Position numbers and translations under genes: made by a program. 36,269 nucleotides of DNA from Anaerolineales bacterium (GTDB lineage Bacteria; Chloroflexota; Anaerolineae; Anaerolineales; RBG-16-64-43), in the NCBI GenBank assembly GCA_016928575.1, contig JAFGKK010000120.1:1-36269 (forward strand). The letters run 5' to 3'. Shown here piece by piece: positions 8,681 through 15,788 of this stretch. The notes beneath the pieces are model-generated. The model worked only from the letters and a program-made list of their open reading frames with translations, did no database searches and was not told the origin of the DNA. Numbering within the stretch: position 1 is the stretch's first letter; each line of letters starts with the position of its first letter.

Positions 8681-11600
8681 ATGGCAGAACCTGCGGCAGC
8701 GGACAACGCGGCCTCCACCCCCTCTTGGCGGAACCTGGATCAGAGCGTGTTCGGCCTGTTTCCGTTGACGGTGGAGAATTTTCTGGCGCTCGTGCTGGTG
8801 ATCCTGGCCGTGGCGACCCGGCTGTACGGATTGGAAGACCGGGTGGCCAGCCACGACGAAGTCAACCATTTCGTCCCCTCGTACGATTTCTCCCAAGGAA
8901 TGCAATTCCGATTCGATCCGATGACGCACGGCCCGCTGCAGATGCACCTGATCGCGCTTTCGTTCGTGGCCTTGGGCGACAACGATTTCACCGCCCGCCT
9001 TCCGGCCGCGCTGTTCAGCATCGCCACCGTCGCGATTGCGCTGTTCCTGTTCCGGCCTTACCTCGGCCGGCGCGGCGCCCTGATCGCCGGAGCGTTGTTC
9101 CTGATCTCGCCCTACATGCTGTATTACGGGCGCTACCAGCGCAACGAGGCCTTCATCGTCGTCTGGGTGCTGTTGACGATCTACGCCATCCTGCGCTACC
9201 TGGAACGCGGCGAATGGGGCACGCTGGTTCTCTTCACCGCCGTCAACGCGCTGCATTTCACCGAAAAAGCCACCGGATACATCTACGCCGGCGGGCAGGT
9301 GGTCTTCCTGATCGGGTTGTTCCTGATCCGGCTGGCGCGCCGGTCCGACGTCAACCGTCTGGCCAAGATCCGCTTCTTCGCAGCCCTGGGGCTTTCCGCC
9401 TTTCTCTTCGCCGGCACCGCCTATATGTGGCGGGCCGCCGACGCATCCTATGCGCAGAATCCCGATCCCGCAGTCTTCGTTCCGGCGGTGATCGCCGGAA
9501 TCTTCGGATTGGCCGCGGCGGTGGTCGGGGTGGTCCTCCTGATGCAGGATGCCGAGGCGCAGGTCCGCCAGGAACGGTCCTTCGACCTGATCGTCCTGCT
9601 CGGAACCCTGGTCCTCCCCTTGACCTCCGCGGTGTGGATGATCTCGATCGGCAGGCTCTTCCAATTTCCGATGGATCCGATCGACATGAATTTCGCATGG
9701 GCCTCAAACCTATCCGCCCTGTTCGATCCGGCGCAGCCGTACCTCGCCATGCTGGGTGGGGCCCTGCCCTATATTCTCGTTCCGACGGCCGCCGCGGTCG
9801 GGATCGGGCTGTGGTGGAAGCGCAAAGAATGGTGGATTCTGGCGCTGGTGTTCTTTGGCATATTCGCCTTCTTCTTCACCACCGTCCTGACCAATCCCGG
9901 CGGTTTGCTCGACGGCCTGATCCGTTATCTGGGGTATTGGATCGTCCAGCACGGGGAGGAGCGCGCCAGCCAGCCGTGGTTCTATTATCTGCTGATTCAA
10001 ATCCCGATCTACGAATACCTGCCGGCGATCGGCGCGGTCACGGCCTTTCTGATCATGCTTCGCCGGCGGCTGTGGCAGGCGGACGCCGGAAAACCGTTCC
10101 AGCCCGCCGCGGATTCCGCCGGCGAGGTCCGGCCGGTTCCGGCCATCCCGCTCTTCCTCTACTTCGGCCTGTTCAGCCTGGCGATCTTCTCCTACGCGGG
10201 CGAAAAAATGCCCCAGCAGACGATGCTGATCGCCGCGCCGATGATCCTCGCCGCCGCCTGGGCGCTGGGTTGGATCCTGGAGACGAAACCGGTGGGCGCG
10301 ACGCTGCGATTCCGGAAGTGGTCGTTCGAAATCCCCGCCTCGGCCGCCGTTCCGGCGCGCCACTTCCTGCTGGCTGCTTTCGCCGTCCTCGGATTGCTCA
10401 CCGCGCGCACGGCCTACTTCGCGACCTACATCAACTACGACTACCCCAACGAATACATGGCCTACGCCCACGGGGCGCCGGGGCCCAAGATCGCCTTGGA
10501 GGAGATCGAGCGCATCTCCCGCCTCACCACCGGCGGCACCGACCTGGTGGTGGCCTACGACAACTACGTCCGCTATCCCTACTGGTGGTACCTGCGGCAC
10601 TATCCGAAGCGGATCGACTTCGGCGAATCCCCGGGCATGGACATCCGCCAAGCGGGGATCGTCGTCGTCGGCGAGCAGAACAACCTCAAAGTCGTCCCCA
10701 TCCTGGGCGATGATTACGTCCGCTTCGAGCAGATGCGGATGTGGTGGCATAACCAGGACTACTGGGGGTTGAAATGGGATCCGCCGTATATCGAAAGCGA
10801 ATACCTGAGCGAAGCCCGGGCCAACGGGGTGGAGAACCCGCCGCCGATGTCGATCCCGGCCTACCTGCGGCTGGCCTGGGGCCACATCTCGCCGATCTTC
10901 GTGGATCCGCAAGCCCGCCTGGCCGCCCTGCAGATCTGGTTCAACCGCGATTTCTCCGGATGGGGGATGTATACGGGAAAGGGCGGATATTCCTATCAGG
11001 ATTGGTCGCTGGCGGAGCGGCTTTACATCTACTTCCGCAAAGACCTGTTGGATCACCTGGGCGGAGCTCCGGAAAGCGCCGCCGGCGGCGCCCTGACCTT
11101 CGATCCCTACGAACTCTCGTGGATCGACCTCGTGCCCGATTTCACCGTCGGGTACACCGGAGCGGGGCCCGGTGAGTTCTTCGCCCCGCGCGGAATCGCC
11201 CTCGCGCCCGACGGCAGTCTGTACGTGGCGGATTCGATGAACCACCGGATCCAACACCTGGATTCGGAAGGAACCCTCCTCCGCCAGTGGGGGTCCTTCG
11301 GCAGCATTGATCTGGGCCAAGCCCCCGGCGGGACCTTCAACGAGCCCTGGGGAATCGGCCTGGGTCCGGACGGTTCGGTCTACGTCGCCGACACCTGGAA
11401 CCACCGGGTCCAGAAATTCACGGCCGAAGGCGAGTTCCTCGCCATGTGGGGCGCGCCGATCTCCGACACCGAGGCGGAAATCACCTTCTACGGTCCGCGG
11501 ACGATCGCCGTCGACGCCGAGGGGCGCGTGTTCGTGGCCGACACCGGCAACAAGCGGGTCGCGGTCTTCACCGCCGACGGCGAATACCTTACCGAGTTCG

Positions 11601-12022
11601 GGACCCCGGGAGCCGGCGAAGGCCAGCTGGACGAGCCGGTCGGCCTCGCGGTGGACGACCAGGGGCGGGTGTTTGTCGCCGATACATGGAACCGCCGGGT
11701 TCAGATCTTCGCCCCCGAGGCGGACGGCTCCTATACCTCGGCCGGAATGTGGGACGTCAACGCCTGGTTCGGCACGACCGCCGAGATCAAACCCTTCCTG
11801 GCGCTGGACGCCAACCGCCACGTTTACCTCACGGATCCCTCCACCTGCCGGATCCTGGAGTTCACCGAGCGCGGGGTGATCTTGAACGTCTGGGGGACGT
11901 GCGGCGACGACGGCCTGTCGCTGAATTCGCCGACCGGGATCGCGGTCGACCCGCTCGGCGGGCTGTGGGTGAGTGATTCCCGGCACGACCGGCTGGTGCA
12001 CTACATGCCTCCGACCCGCTGA
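8681..12022 (+). CDS. Agl23/TIGR03663-like GT-C membrane protein with C-terminal NHL propeller
   Basis: A 1113-residue membrane protein. Residues about 25-620 hold many hydrophobic helices and resemble dolichyl-phosphate-mannose-type (GT-C) transferases of the TIGR03663/Agl23 group; an acidic pair follows the first helix (SHDEVNH, Asp59-Glu60), the usual catalytic position in GT-C enzymes. After a soluble stretch, residues about 820-1113 contain six NHL repeats of the type GIA-PDG-YVADS-NHRIQ, enough for a complete six-bladed propeller. The ATG at 8681 has GGAGG 8 bases upstream; in-frame sequence further up is not hydrophobic and was left out. Probably involved in envelope glycosylation or sugar-lipid handling; substrate unknown. 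Confidence 0.82.
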   Translation: MAEPAAADNAASTPSWRNLDQSVFGLFPLTVENFLALVLVILAVATRLYGLEDRVASHDEVNHFVPSYDFSQGMQFRFDPMTHGPLQMHLIALSFVALGDNDFTARLPAALFSIATVAIALFLFRPYLGRRGALIAGALFLISPYMLYYGRYQRNEAFIVVWVLLTIYAILRYLERGEWGTLVLFTAVNALHFTEKATGYIYAGGQVVFLIGLFLIRLARRSDVNRLAKIRFFAALGLSAFLFAGTAYMWRAADASYAQNPDPAVFVPAVIAGIFGLAAAVVGVVLLMQDAEAQVRQERSFDLIVLLGTLVLPLTSAVWMISIGRLFQFPMDPIDMNFAWASNLSALFDPAQPYLAMLGGALPYILVPTAAAVGIGLWWKRKEWWILALVFFGIFAFFFTTVLTNPGGLLDGLIRYLGYWIVQHGEERASQPWFYYLLIQIPIYEYLPAIGAVTAFLIMLRRRLWQADAGKPFQPAADSAGEVRPVPAIPLFLYFGLFSLAIFSYAGEKMPQQTMLIAAPMILAAAWALGWILETKPVGATLRFRKWSFEIPASAAVPARHFLLAAFAVLGLLTARTAYFATYINYDYPNEYMAYAHGAPGPKIALEEIERISRLTTGGTDLVVAYDNYVRYPYWWYLRHYPKRIDFGESPGMDIRQAGIVVVGEQNNLKVVPILGDDYVRFEQMRMWWHNQDYWGLKWDPPYIESEYLSEARANGVENPPPMSIPAYLRLAWGHISPIFVDPQARLAALQIWFNRDFSGWGMYTGKGGYSYQDWSLAERLYIYFRKDLLDHLGGAPESAAGGALTFDPYELSWIDLVPDFTVGYTGAGPGEFFAPRGIALAPDGSLYVADSMNHRIQHLDSEGTLLRQWGSFGSIDLGQAPGGTFNEPWGIGLGPDGSVYVADTWNHRVQKFTAEGEFLAMWGAPISDTEAEITFYGPRTIAVDAEGRVFVADTGNKRVAVFTADGEYLTEFGTPGAGEGQLDEPVGLAVDDQGRVFVADTWNRRVQIFAPEADGSYTSAGMWDVNAWFGTTAEIKPFLALDANRHVYLTDPSTCRILEFTERGVILNVWGTCGDDGLSLNSPTGIAVDPLGGLWVSDSRHDRLVHYMPPTR

Positions 12023-12130: not shown

Positions 12131-13429
12131 ATGCTTCGCAGCCTGATCCGCAGCCTCCTGCGCCGGGCGATGTACGCCGTCACCTACCTGCCGGCGATGC
12201 TCGCCCTGACCATCGCCCTGACCTCGGATTCCTTCGCCCCGCGCTCCTTGATCGACAAGGTGCGCGTGATCACCGCCCCGTACGAGTTCGAATTCGTCTC
12301 CTGGACGGCGAACGCGGTGTGGGAGAAGCTCCTCCAGTTCACGCTGGGCGACGAGCGATACCTTTCCGCCGACGCCTGGCACGACATCGTCCTCGAGTAC
12401 AACGCCCTGCTGGACGGCATTTTCGCCGACAACGCCGAACTGACCCGGATCTTTTCCGATCCGTCGATCCCCGATCCGATGCGGGCTTCTACGGACCTGC
12501 GCGGCCGCCTGGAGGAAAAGCGCAGCCTTCAAGCCCGGCGCCAGAACCTGGTGGAGGCGATCCTGCAAGAGCAGGTCTCGTCCGAACTGCGCGCGGAGGG
12601 ATTCGCCTACGGCGGGGAGATGCTGCCGCCCGTGCTGTTCCGCTTCACCCAGCTGCCGATGGGCTTGATCATCTCGCCTCGTCACGTGATCCGCCAGGAC
12701 GCCAACGTCCAGCTGGCGGCCGGCCTGACCCTCGAGCGGCAGATCGCCCTCGAAGCGGAAGCCGAGCGCCGACTCGGCGTTTCCGCGCTGGTCGTCCCCT
12801 TCGGCGGGTTGGGAACCTTCCCGACGATGATCATGGAGACCACTTACACCCAGTGGGTGTTGGAAGCGGTGACGCACGAGTGGACCCATCATTACCTCTA
12901 CCTCCATCCGCTGGGGATCGCTTACGATTCTTCGGCGGAAATGCGCACCATCAACGAAACGGTCGCCACGCTGTTCGGAAAAGCGATCGGCGCGCAGGTG
13001 GTCCGGCGCCATTACCCCGAATGGGCGGGCGGAATCCCGAACGGCTCCGGCGCCAAAATGTTGTTGCACGGATTCCCGGCTCCCCGGCAGCAGGAATTCG
13101 ACTATCAGCACGAGATGTACGTTACCCGCGTGGAAACCGACCGCCTGCTGGCGGAAGGCAAGATCGCCGAGGCCGAAGCCTACATGGAAGCGCGCCGGCG
13201 TTTCATCGTGGAAAACGGGTACGTCATCCGCCGGTTGAACCAGGCTTTCTTCGCTTTCTACGGATCCTACGCCGATTCCCCCGGGGAGCGCGGCGAGGAT
13301 CCTGTCGGCCCGGCGGTGGTGGCGCTTTACGAACAGTGCCCTTCGGCCGGAGCGTTCCTGCGATACGTCGCCCAGGTTACCAGCTTCGAGCATTTGCAGC
13401 AGCTGGCCGCCGACGGACGGTGCGGATGA
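12131..13429 (+). CDS. Putative membrane-anchored HExxH metallopeptidase
   Basis: Not recognised as a named family. The 432-residue product has a basic N-terminus and one hydrophobic segment (about residues 15-31), so it is probably anchored with the rest outside. THEWTHHYLYLHPLG carries HExxH (His249, Glu250, His253), and NET (Glu276) follows 22 residues later, a spacing that suits a gluzincin-type zinc site. The C-terminal third is charged and includes FFAFYGSYADSPGE. The start is fixed by the leaderless promoter. It is joined to the next gene by a 4-base gap, so the two very likely share a transcript. Protease activity is inferred from the motif only. Confidence 0.7.
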   Translation: MLRSLIRSLLRRAMYAVTYLPAMLALTIALTSDSFAPRSLIDKVRVITAPYEFEFVSWTANAVWEKLLQFTLGDERYLSADAWHDIVLEYNALLDGIFADNAELTRIFSDPSIPDPMRASTDLRGRLEEKRSLQARRQNLVEAILQEQVSSELRAEGFAYGGEMLPPVLFRFTQLPMGLIISPRHVIRQDANVQLAAGLTLERQIALEAEAERRLGVSALVVPFGGLGTFPTMIMETTYTQWVLEAVTHEWTHHYLYLHPLGIAYDSSAEMRTINETVATLFGKAIGAQVVRRHYPEWAGGIPNGSGAKMLLHGFPAPRQQEFDYQHEMYVTRVETDRLLAEGKIAEAEAYMEARRRFIVENGYVIRRLNQAFFAFYGSYADSPGERGEDPVGPAVVALYEQCPSAGAFLRYVAQVTSFEHLQQLAADGRCG

Positions 13430-13433
13430 CCCG

Positions 13434-15788
13434 ATGGACATGCCCTTCTTCCCCGGCCGCCGTCTCTCGCCCCCGGAACCGCTCGCGGTGTTCCTGCCTC
13501 CGTACCGCGAGGGGCTGGGGGCGGAATTCCTGCGACGCCTCGGAAAACGCAGTCCGCGGATCGTCGACCCGTTCGGACAATCCCCCGCCCTGGCGCTGGA
13601 ATTGGCGCGCAGCGGAGCGGCGGTCCTCCTCGCTTCCCCCAATCCGGTCTTGCGTGCGATCCTCGGACTGCAGGCCGATCCGCCTCCCACCCGGCTGATC
13701 CAAAACGTACTCGCCCGGATCGCGAATTCCCCGTCCAGCGCGGCTCCCGATCCTGCCCCTTCCGCCCCCCAAACCCTGGAAGCGCACCTGCGCAGCCTGT
13801 ATCGCGGGAAATGCGCCTTCTGCGGAAAAGAGTCGGAAGCCGCCGGATACGTGTGGGAATACGAACCCGAGCCGAAGTCGCACGCCACCGTCACCCACCC
13901 GCCCGCCCGCGGCCTGTTCCAGGATTCCAAGAAGCGGAAGCCCAAACCCCGCCTGAGCCGCCGGATTTGCGCCTGTCCGGATTGCGGCCATCGGGTGGAG
14001 GAGCCAGCCGGCCCGGCCGACGAGAAGGCGATGCCCTCCGAGGCTTCGCGCCGGCTGCTCTACCATTTCGCGCTCGAGCGCTTGGCGCCGCTCGACGATC
14101 CTTCGCGGGCGGGGGCGGCCGACGCCTTGGACGCCTACCCCTCGCGCTCGTTGTACGCGCTGGTGCTGATCCTCCGGCGTCTTGAATCGATGGAATTCAC
14201 GGCGGAGGAAAAGCGGTGCGTGGATGCGCTGCTGCTCACGGTGCTGGACAGGGCCCACATCCTCCGCGGGCACGGACACTCGACTCGCACCCGGCCGCGT
14301 TCGCTGCAGCCTCCGGCCGAGTTCCTCGAGGTGAACATTTGGCGGGCGTTGGAGGAGGCGGCCGAAGTCTGGAGCGCACCCGCGCGGCCGGTCCCCTTCC
14401 GCAAATGGCGCGAGGGCGATTCGCCGGAAGCAGGGTCGATTATGACCTTCGCCGGCACCGCGCGCGAACTGGCCCCCCACGCGGCCGCCTTGCGTCCGGA
14501 CGGCCTGATCACCTTCCTGCCGCGGCCGAACCAGGCGGCCTGGACCCTTTCTGCGGTGTGGGCGGAATGGCTCTGGGGCCGGGCGGCCGCCGCGCCCCTG
14601 GCCGGCTCGCTGCAGCGCCGCTGGTTCGATTGGAACTGGCATGCCCGCGCGCTCGGCGCTTCGGCTGCGGCGCTGGCCGCCAGTCTGCCGGCGGACCTGC
14701 CCGCCGCGACGTTCCTGGGCGAATGCGAACCGGGGTTTCTTACCTCGGCGCTGTGGGCTTTGTATCAGGCAGGATTTGTCTTGAAAGGCCGCGCGATCCG
14801 GACCGACACCGGCGCGGCCCAGTTGCTGTGGTCGACCCCCGGCCCGGAACACACTCCCCTGTCTTATGGTCCGCTGAATTTGGAGGGCGCGGAGGATATC
14901 GCCCGGCTGGCGGTCCGCCAATTGATCTCCTCCCGCGCCGAGCCCGTGCCTTGGGATCTGATGCATGCGGCGTACTGGAGCGAGGAGGTGTTCCGCCGCA
15001 TGCTTCCGCCCGAACCCCCGCAAGCCGACGAAAGCGGCTTCGCCCGCTGTGTGACTGTGTTGGCCGAGGCGGTCCGCACCGACAAGGAGTTGAAATCCAC
15101 CGAGAAGAAAGAGGAGAACGAATTCGGCACCACCTGGTGGCTGCCGGGGGACGAATCGATCACCAATCCGCTGGCGGACGAAGTGGAGATGGAAACGGCC
15201 AGGATGCTGCTGGAGGACGGTCCGCTTCCCGCCGAGGAATTGGACCGCCGCCTTTGCTCTTTTTTTCCCGGACTGCTGACGCCCGAACAGCGTCTGCTGC
15301 AAGTTTGCCTGGAATCTTACGGCGCACCAACGGAGGACGGCGGCGCCTGGGTCCTCCGTCCGGAGGACCATCCGGCTTCGCGCACCAAGGAAATGGAATT
15401 GATGCGCGCGGCGTTAAGCGGGTTGGGCATAAAGATGGGATTTGCTCCGGAGGGGAATCCGGAAATGTACTGGATCGACGCCTCGGGCCGCAAGGCATAC
15501 TGCTTCCTGTTCATCCATTCCGGCGCCGTCGGCCGTTACCTGTTGCAGCCGGTTTTCGAGCCGCGCCTGTCCTGGATCGTCCTGCCCGGCGGACGGGCTA
15601 CGCTGGTCGGTCACAAACTCCGGCGGAACGTGCTCCTGCGCCGGGCCGTGTCCAAGGGCTGGCGCTTTATGAAGTTCCGGCACATCCGCCGGTTGCTTGA
15701 AGACCCGTACCTGCGGCCGGAAAACCTTGACGAACGCATGGGATTGGACCCCCTGGAAGTGACCGAGGACAAGGTTCCGCTGCTATAG
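13434..15788 (+). CDS. Zinc-ribbon protein resembling a degenerate DNA methyltransferase
   Basis: A 784-residue cytosolic protein without a firm family match. Residues 43-75 (IVDPFGQSPALALELARSG...) resemble the SAM-binding DPFxGxGT motif of N4/N6 DNA methylases but lack its glycines. Cys127-Cys130 and Cys179/Cys181-Cys184 look like a zinc ribbon inserted as in Zn-containing methylases. Near residue 359, ITFLPRPNQAAW sits where a DPPY/F catalytic motif would be expected but reads LPRP. The C-terminal part (from about 580) looks like a winged-helix region plus a basic segment (GHKLRRNVLLRRAVSKGWRFMKFRHIRR). I infer a nucleic-acid-binding protein that has lost methylation. It is the second gene of its unit. 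Confidence 0.6.
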   Translation: MDMPFFPGRRLSPPEPLAVFLPPYREGLGAEFLRRLGKRSPRIVDPFGQSPALALELARSGAAVLLASPNPVLRAILGLQADPPPTRLIQNVLARIANSPSSAAPDPAPSAPQTLEAHLRSLYRGKCAFCGKESEAAGYVWEYEPEPKSHATVTHPPARGLFQDSKKRKPKPRLSRRICACPDCGHRVEEPAGPADEKAMPSEASRRLLYHFALERLAPLDDPSRAGAADALDAYPSRSLYALVLILRRLESMEFTAEEKRCVDALLLTVLDRAHILRGHGHSTRTRPRSLQPPAEFLEVNIWRALEEAAEVWSAPARPVPFRKWREGDSPEAGSIMTFAGTARELAPHAAALRPDGLITFLPRPNQAAWTLSAVWAEWLWGRAAAAPLAGSLQRRWFDWNWHARALGASAAALAASLPADLPAATFLGECEPGFLTSALWALYQAGFVLKGRAIRTDTGAAQLLWSTPGPEHTPLSYGPLNLEGAEDIARLAVRQLISSRAEPVPWDLMHAAYWSEEVFRRMLPPEPPQADESGFARCVTVLAEAVRTDKELKSTEKKEENEFGTTWWLPGDESITNPLADEVEMETARMLLEDGPLPAEELDRRLCSFFPGLLTPEQRLLQVCLESYGAPTEDGGAWVLRPEDHPASRTKEMELMRAALSGLGIKMGFAPEGNPEMYWIDASGRKAYCFLFIHSGAVGRYLLQPVFEPRLSWIVLPGGRATLVGHKLRRNVLLRRAVSKGWRFMKFRHIRRLLEDPYLRPENLDERMGLDPLEVTEDKVPLL

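Follow-up and report, generated by a model that had tools for sequence, protein, structure and literature searches.

DNA methylases carrying DUF1156 (PF06634) are known from BR systems as relatives of BrxXI of type-3 BREX, and have an insert after core strand 2 together with C-terminal HTH domains (PMC12839542). A second group of possible relatives consists of zinc-containing N6/N4 DNA methylases with a DPPYFD motif (L047-L049 and L160-L168 in our collection), which match PF01555 and, weakly, PF06634/DUF1156. One-chain restriction-modification enzymes combine a methylase and a PD-(D/E)XK-like domain in a single chain, and restriction-modification enzymes in general are usually viewed as mobile defence genes. 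Proteins that bind the beta sliding clamp do so through peptides of the consensus Q-phi-x-[LM]-[FL], or of the longer, six-residue consensus Q-phi-x-[LM]-x-[FL], which are found at the C-terminus of Pol II (QLGLF) and Pol IV (QLVLGL) (PMC11139829).

The gene described here lies in a 36,269-nt stretch of DNA from an Anaerolineales bacterium (contig JAFGKK010000120.1, positions 1 to 36,269, assembly GCA_016928575.1), referred to below as the window. The family to which its product belongs shares a collinear split fold with the zinc-containing N6/N4 methylases, and the likeness extends over the zinc ribbon, the NP motif and the motif IV region; however, the motif I glycines, the acidic residue and DPPY are gone here, as is the DUF1156 N-terminal helical part, and a winged helix and a PD-(D/E)XK-like domain are added. 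DUF1156 methylases keep DPFAGGG and DPPYYD and act in defence, whereas the family has no DUF499 ATPase or helicase neighbours. The layout of methylase and nuclease-like domain is that of one-chain restriction-modification enzymes, but catalytic residues are missing from both parts, and the gene is chromosomal and present once per genome. Judged by sequence, most members share with Pol II and Pol IV a disordered Q-phi-x-[LM]-[FL] peptide at the extreme C-terminus, while a polymerase domain or known repair domain is lacking. To the extent that this can be judged, the protein works in the manner of a restriction-modification enzyme that has been domesticated and tethered to the clamp; much of a phylum has apparently adopted one such enzyme, stripped it of both its activities and, in most members, connected it to the replication clamp through a short peptide.

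Coordinates of the features are collected in Table 1.

Table 1 Features of the pseudo-methylase gene and its upstream neighbour (nucleotide positions in the window)
Feature	Residues	Position	Strand	Basis
Upstream HExxH gene, N-terminal hydrophobic stretch		12131..13429	+	Ends 4 nt before the methylase-like ATG
Zinc-ribbon pseudo-methylase gene, 784 aa, ATG start		13434..15788	+	ORF, homologues, dN/dS ~0.2
Rossmann fold, first part (beta1-alphaA-beta2)	1-115	13434..13778	+	AF2, hhalign, alignment
Zinc ribbon inserted in methylase fold, C127xxC130 ... C181xxC184	116-195	13779..14018	+	Conservation
Mostly helical segment	196-335	14019..14438	+	AF2, hhalign
Rossmann fold, second part	336-470	14439..14843	+	AF2, hhalign, VIA-align, alignment
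Helical linker region	471-575	14844..15158	+	AF2 model
Winged helix	576-643	15159..15362	+	Separate AF2 model, structure matches
PD-(D/E)XK-like domain without acidic residues (probable)	644-775	15363..15758	+	Element order, structure matches
Disordered tail ending EDKVPLL	776-784	15759..15785	+	pLDDT < 50, tail comparison

A homologue without internal stops was found in 40 of 61 relatives, by position as a single copy per genome, several of the individual matches being fragments of one gene. Substitutions relative to the closest relative fell mostly on the third codon position (162, 115 and 370 at positions one, two and three). Uninterrupted homologues and this third-position bias identify the frame as a gene and not a chance ORF, and with dN of 0.20 and dS of 1.02 (dN/dS about 0.2) the gene is under purifying selection. 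An open frame of 664 aa on the minus strand (13377-15371) is likely a by-product of codon use at high G+C.

A scan of a collection with one genome per species returned 271 relatives; the best 80 of 271 were retained, and the titles of these were all Anaerolineales or other Chloroflexi, with the cultured Ornatilinea apprima (L127) as one of the members. A profile search of the phylum gave matches in 62 of 251 genomes. Matches from beyond the order were mostly frames of 790-1135 aa aligning over their full length, 15 of which aligned to the family with an hhalign E-value of 2e-92; some short matches to generic methylases were also obtained. Family matches were absent from the plasmids, phages and viral contigs searched, and neither Pfam nor NCBIfam holds a model matching the window protein. 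This is an unnamed chromosomal family of Chloroflexota, with relatives in 271 stretches of the species collection and yet no Pfam or NCBIfam model. The literature searched, of which most subscription journals were outside the scope, yielded no paper on a clamp-bound pseudo-methylase or on this Chloroflexota family.

An earlier note, written from the letters of the window alone, had read the protein as a degenerate zinc-ribbon DNA methylase, and the comparisons bear out this descent. When a profile of 79 members was aligned by hhalign with one of ten methylases from the phylum (nine with DPPY, for example with DPFMGGGT and DPPYFDSIHYSELSNFFYVWL, and L165 with DPAFFD), the probability was 98.7 and the E-value 4.7e-16. 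The match was collinear over window-protein residues 28-462, taking in motif I, NP, the zinc ribbon and motif IV, and the helical segment of residues 196-335 aligned with the corresponding region of the intact methylases. Of the two groups that the earlier note had proposed for comparison, the N4/N6 DNA methylases were thereby supported as relatives, whereas full DUF1156 methylases proved more distant, with core homology at an E-value of 0.002 and an hhalign probability of only 13%. PF06634 did not match the window protein or genome G000, and for 30 members it was not among the first 25 families listed. PADLOC models of type II methylases matched 11 of 30 members, with a best E-value of 4.8e-6. 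Residues C127, C130 and C181 of the zinc ribbon (CAFC at aa 127-130, CPDC at aa 181-184) are invariant in the 79 sequences and C184 is almost so. A tree of the methylase part, run as a quick search with SH-aLRT support only, grouped members from other classes and a PyrK-fused form (described below) on a single branch that excludes the intact methylases, with a support of 100.

The AF2 model built from the 79 sequences (pLDDT 91.4, pTM 0.90) contains the Rossmann SAM-methyltransferase fold that the methylase reading predicted. Foldseek alone found no PDB match to the whole model below 0.001, the best being methyltransferases at 0.04, and the fold was called after VIA-align realignment of the Foldseek matches. 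The best of these realignments was to Trm14 (Z 13.1, rmsd 2.8, 177 residues), above the level of Z < 8 at which VIA-align matches may be meaningless, and many further SAM methyltransferases were among the matches. Searching by sequence against solved structures produced zinc-finger and other chance matches only.

The methylase motifs themselves are changed, as the earlier note had also claimed, and the DPF motif, FGQSPAL, CxxC ribbon and LPRP that it listed are all present in the 784-aa frame. Motif I reads DPFGQSPAL (aa 45-53, nt 13566-13592) where intact relatives have DPFMGGGTT; its core, DPFGQSP (aa 45-51, nt 13566-13586), replaces DPFxGGGT, and the SAM-loop glycines, invariant in the intact set, have become Q49 and P51. 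The acidic D that follows beta2 in intact methylases (CDLNP) is S68, as S68-P-N70-P71 replaces D-x-NP. In motif IV, FLPRPNQ (aa 361-367, nt 14514-14534) stands for TDPPYFD, with F for D and R for Y. Active N6/N4 amino DNA methyltransferases have a FxGxG motif I loop and an acidic residue, both absent from the window protein, and (D/N/S)PP(Y/F/W), in place of which it has FLPRPNQ. By its motifs I and IV the window protein would therefore not count among the active DNA methylases, nor, going by profile, does it belong to the DUF1156 family.

These changes are family-wide, and for that reason are not sequencing errors. In all 79 Anaerolineales-type sequences the place of DPPY is taken by [x]PRPN, almost without variation, or by something close to it, GGGT of motif I is of xSP type and the acidic residue after beta2 is gone; N70, P71, P363 and R364 are invariant, P365 and N366 almost so. 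Since the changes are fixed and the new motif is constrained, they point to a change of job and not to decay. DPPY is missing from members in other Chloroflexota too, some of which, in other classes, keep DPWAGTG but carry GSPPPA or GTPSAP, with RPPYPD and DPPRPD seen in one member each. With DPPY, both SAM-loop glycines and the acidic SAM-ribose residue lost, the degenerate-methylase reading stands for a pocket judged from aligned motifs, and SAM chemistry would be absent from Anaerolineales-type members, although a non-canonical pocket might still bind SAM, and distant members with DPWAGTG may do so too. Of the two outcomes that the earlier note had named as refuting, the absence of a structural match to a Rossmann methylase and an intact SAM pocket, neither was encountered. 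A nucleic-acid-binding role, which the earlier note had assigned to the repurposed methylase, is plausible.

The winged helix, the PD-(D/E)XK-like C-terminus and the clamp-type tail are additions to that first reading. Residues 576-784 modelled alone by AF2 gave a pLDDT of 93.5. Within this part, aa 576-643 matched the winged helices of cullin WHB, IclR and PadR with Z up to 5.7, and aa ~645-775 followed the alpha-beta-beta-beta-alpha-beta order of a PD-(D/E)XK core. The latter region had weak matches to AF2093 (Z 6.0), EcoT38I (5.4), BspD6I (4.8) and NucS (4.0), as well as to FokI and YaeQ, all within Z 4-6, and we take nearly all of these proteins to be of the PD-(D/E)XK kind. Because the weak matches agree with one another and the order of helices and strands fits, the assignment is likely, and aa 644-775 probably adopt a PD-(D/E)XK fold in the model. 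The window protein has no acids at the PD-(D/E)XK catalytic sites (MYWIDAS...FLFIHSG, aligned by eye on W and F), and the catalytic acids are likewise missing throughout its order; the expected strands of distant members carry D at an invariant position together with an acidic residue (D..WY ... VEW), with K absent. The whole protein looks like a dead methylase-nuclease fusion. In one Chloroflexota family, five distant members (L208, L201, L209, L196 and L200) have an intact-looking SAM loop, DPWAGTG or DPWSGTG, without DPPY, and their nuclease-like domain carries D..WY...VEWTA or VDWTA; these five may still bind SAM or act as nucleases.

The C-terminal tail has a pLDDT < 50 in both the whole-protein and the C-terminal AF2 model. 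The strict clamp-binding consensus ends 66 of 79 members, compared with one of 494 clustered ORFs from neighbouring genes, a ratio that is not to be read as a probability because the member sequences are related. Examples are QLSLF, QLRLF, QMRLF, QMMMF and QLPLL, and a clamp-type tail was also present in 11 of the 15 distant members. Being disordered and yet unchanged at about 35% overall identity, the tail is under selection. MutS served as a positive control: in six genomes of the order it carries QLQLF (twice), QLPLF, QIALF, QAPLF and QAALF. We infer that the family tails bind the clamp, and their presence in most relatives suggests a role other than catalysis where DNA is being replicated or repaired. 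The lineage of the window differs, with DKVPLL in the window protein and DKVPYL and DKVPFL in L052 and L053: the consensus Q is replaced by K, and clamp binding by the window protein may be weak or absent. MutS of the same genome has QLQLF, so that the clamp there presumably still uses Q.

Taken together, we would give an even chance to the reading of the protein as a methylase-nuclease that was domesticated, is catalytically dead and serves as a clamp-tethered DNA-binding factor, a reader or scaffold. Its origin would be a fusion of a zinc-ribbon DNA methylase with a PD-(D/E)XK nuclease, which was domesticated with the loss of both activities. DNA would be held by three elements: the zinc ribbon, the winged helix and the cleft left empty in the methylase part. 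The flexible QLxLF-type C-terminal peptide would dock most members onto the beta sliding clamp, so placing them at the replication fork, in its wake or where DNA is under repair, with a task of reading or scaffolding instead of catalysis. In the lineage of the window, with KVPLL lacking the Q, this docking may be weak or gone. We infer DNA binding and a reader or scaffold role in general terms; a narrower version, a Chloroflexota-specific replication or repair factor that rides the clamp, reads DNA (for example its methylation state or damage) with the emptied pocket and uses PRPN as a new binding site, is possible but distinctly tentative. If the clamp link is real, the family is a new clamp client and directly testable as such, and suggests a monitoring of replicating DNA by Chloroflexota that is undescribed in the literature searched.

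Other explanations compete with that of a dead, clamp-tethered factor. The protein could still be an enzyme, a rebuilt SAM-dependent methyltransferase with PRPN for DPPY that acts on DNA, RNA or protein; the (almost) complete invariance of PRP and N-P in 79 sequences amounts to a high degree of constraint if the pocket is dead, the AF2 model shows an intact fold and distant members retain DPWAGTG. That both glycines of the SAM loop, the acid that would contact the SAM ribose, and D and Y of DPPY have disappeared together in Anaerolineales-type members nevertheless makes this unlikely in our view. We hold equally unlikely a clamp-directed repair factor with residual nuclease activity in distant members, lost in Anaerolineales, that has left the window protein as a regulatory remnant: the motif K is replaced even in the distant members, despite their invariant D and acidic residue in the expected strands, and although the repair nuclease NucS, of the PD-(D/E)XK type, is among the fold matches, MutS and MutL occur in nearly all genomes and hence are not being replaced. 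A simpler candidate, a stand-in for mismatch repair, was rejected on the same presence of MutS and MutL in nearly all relatives.

A part in defence, as a dead restriction-modification fusion acting as a phage sensor and akin to the DUF1156 methylases that BREX-related systems contain, would fit the intact cousins, which are defence-type DNA methylases (DUF1156 occurring in BR systems; PMC12839542), and the methylase-nuclease fusion, which is typical of restriction-modification. It sits poorly with a single copy per genome across most of an order, with the lack of recurrent defence genes nearby and of any plasmid, phage or viral-contig match, and with a tail that points to the replication clamp, and we rate it as rather improbable. 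Joint work with the upstream HExxH membrane protein, for example as a DNA-bound regulator under the control of membrane proteolysis, is very unlikely: linkage is seen in 10 of 40 genomes, the two genes are hundreds of kb apart in single-contig genomes, and many genomes have the HExxH gene but no methylase-like gene, against which stand the 4-nt spacing in the window and a distance within about 2 kb in all f1 genomes and all five f4 genomes compared.

The HExxH gene (motif HEWTH at aa 249-253) was found in 54 of 61 relatives and its product had no Pfam or NCBIfam match, making it an unannotated core gene of the order. The two genes were linked, at a distance of about 2 kb or less, in families f1 and f4; elsewhere the HExxH gene lay on other contigs or far away. 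The earlier note had called the two genes an odd pairing and asked whether homologues always stand side by side: adjacency holds in the window but is not general, a functional partnership is not supported, and the HExxH gene was accordingly rejected as an obligate partner. Recurrent neighbours at 78 loci were identified from a reading of their sequences. They are housekeeping genes, among them glycosyltransferases, an epimerase, a glycosidase-like enzyme, a sensor kinase and a penicillin-binding protein; the 15 largest recurrent-neighbour clusters contained no defence genes, and these surroundings give no hint of a defence island. Further upstream in the window, 8681-12022 encodes a 1113-aa protein with a mannosyltransferase-like membrane part (PMT_2) and an NHL beta-propeller.

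The same genome carries a second pseudo-methylase, a single frame of 1001 aa (L202:245-3247, minus strand; contig C66:7244-10246) fused to a PyrK-like reductase (dihydroorotate dehydrogenase electron transfer, PF10418). The PyrK-fused form was also seen at L203:347-3481 (minus strand) and in G001 on C22, and full-length matches were present in three family genomes. In the methylase-part tree it branches as a sister lineage, and its C-terminal remnant appears alike by eye; L202 and L203, however, end in the electron-transfer-like reductase where the family has the clamp tail, and L203 keeps DPFGGNGT and EPPF. On the contig of the PyrK fusion, frames resembling orotidine-5'-phosphate decarboxylase and aspartate carbamoyltransferase by sequence lie nearby.
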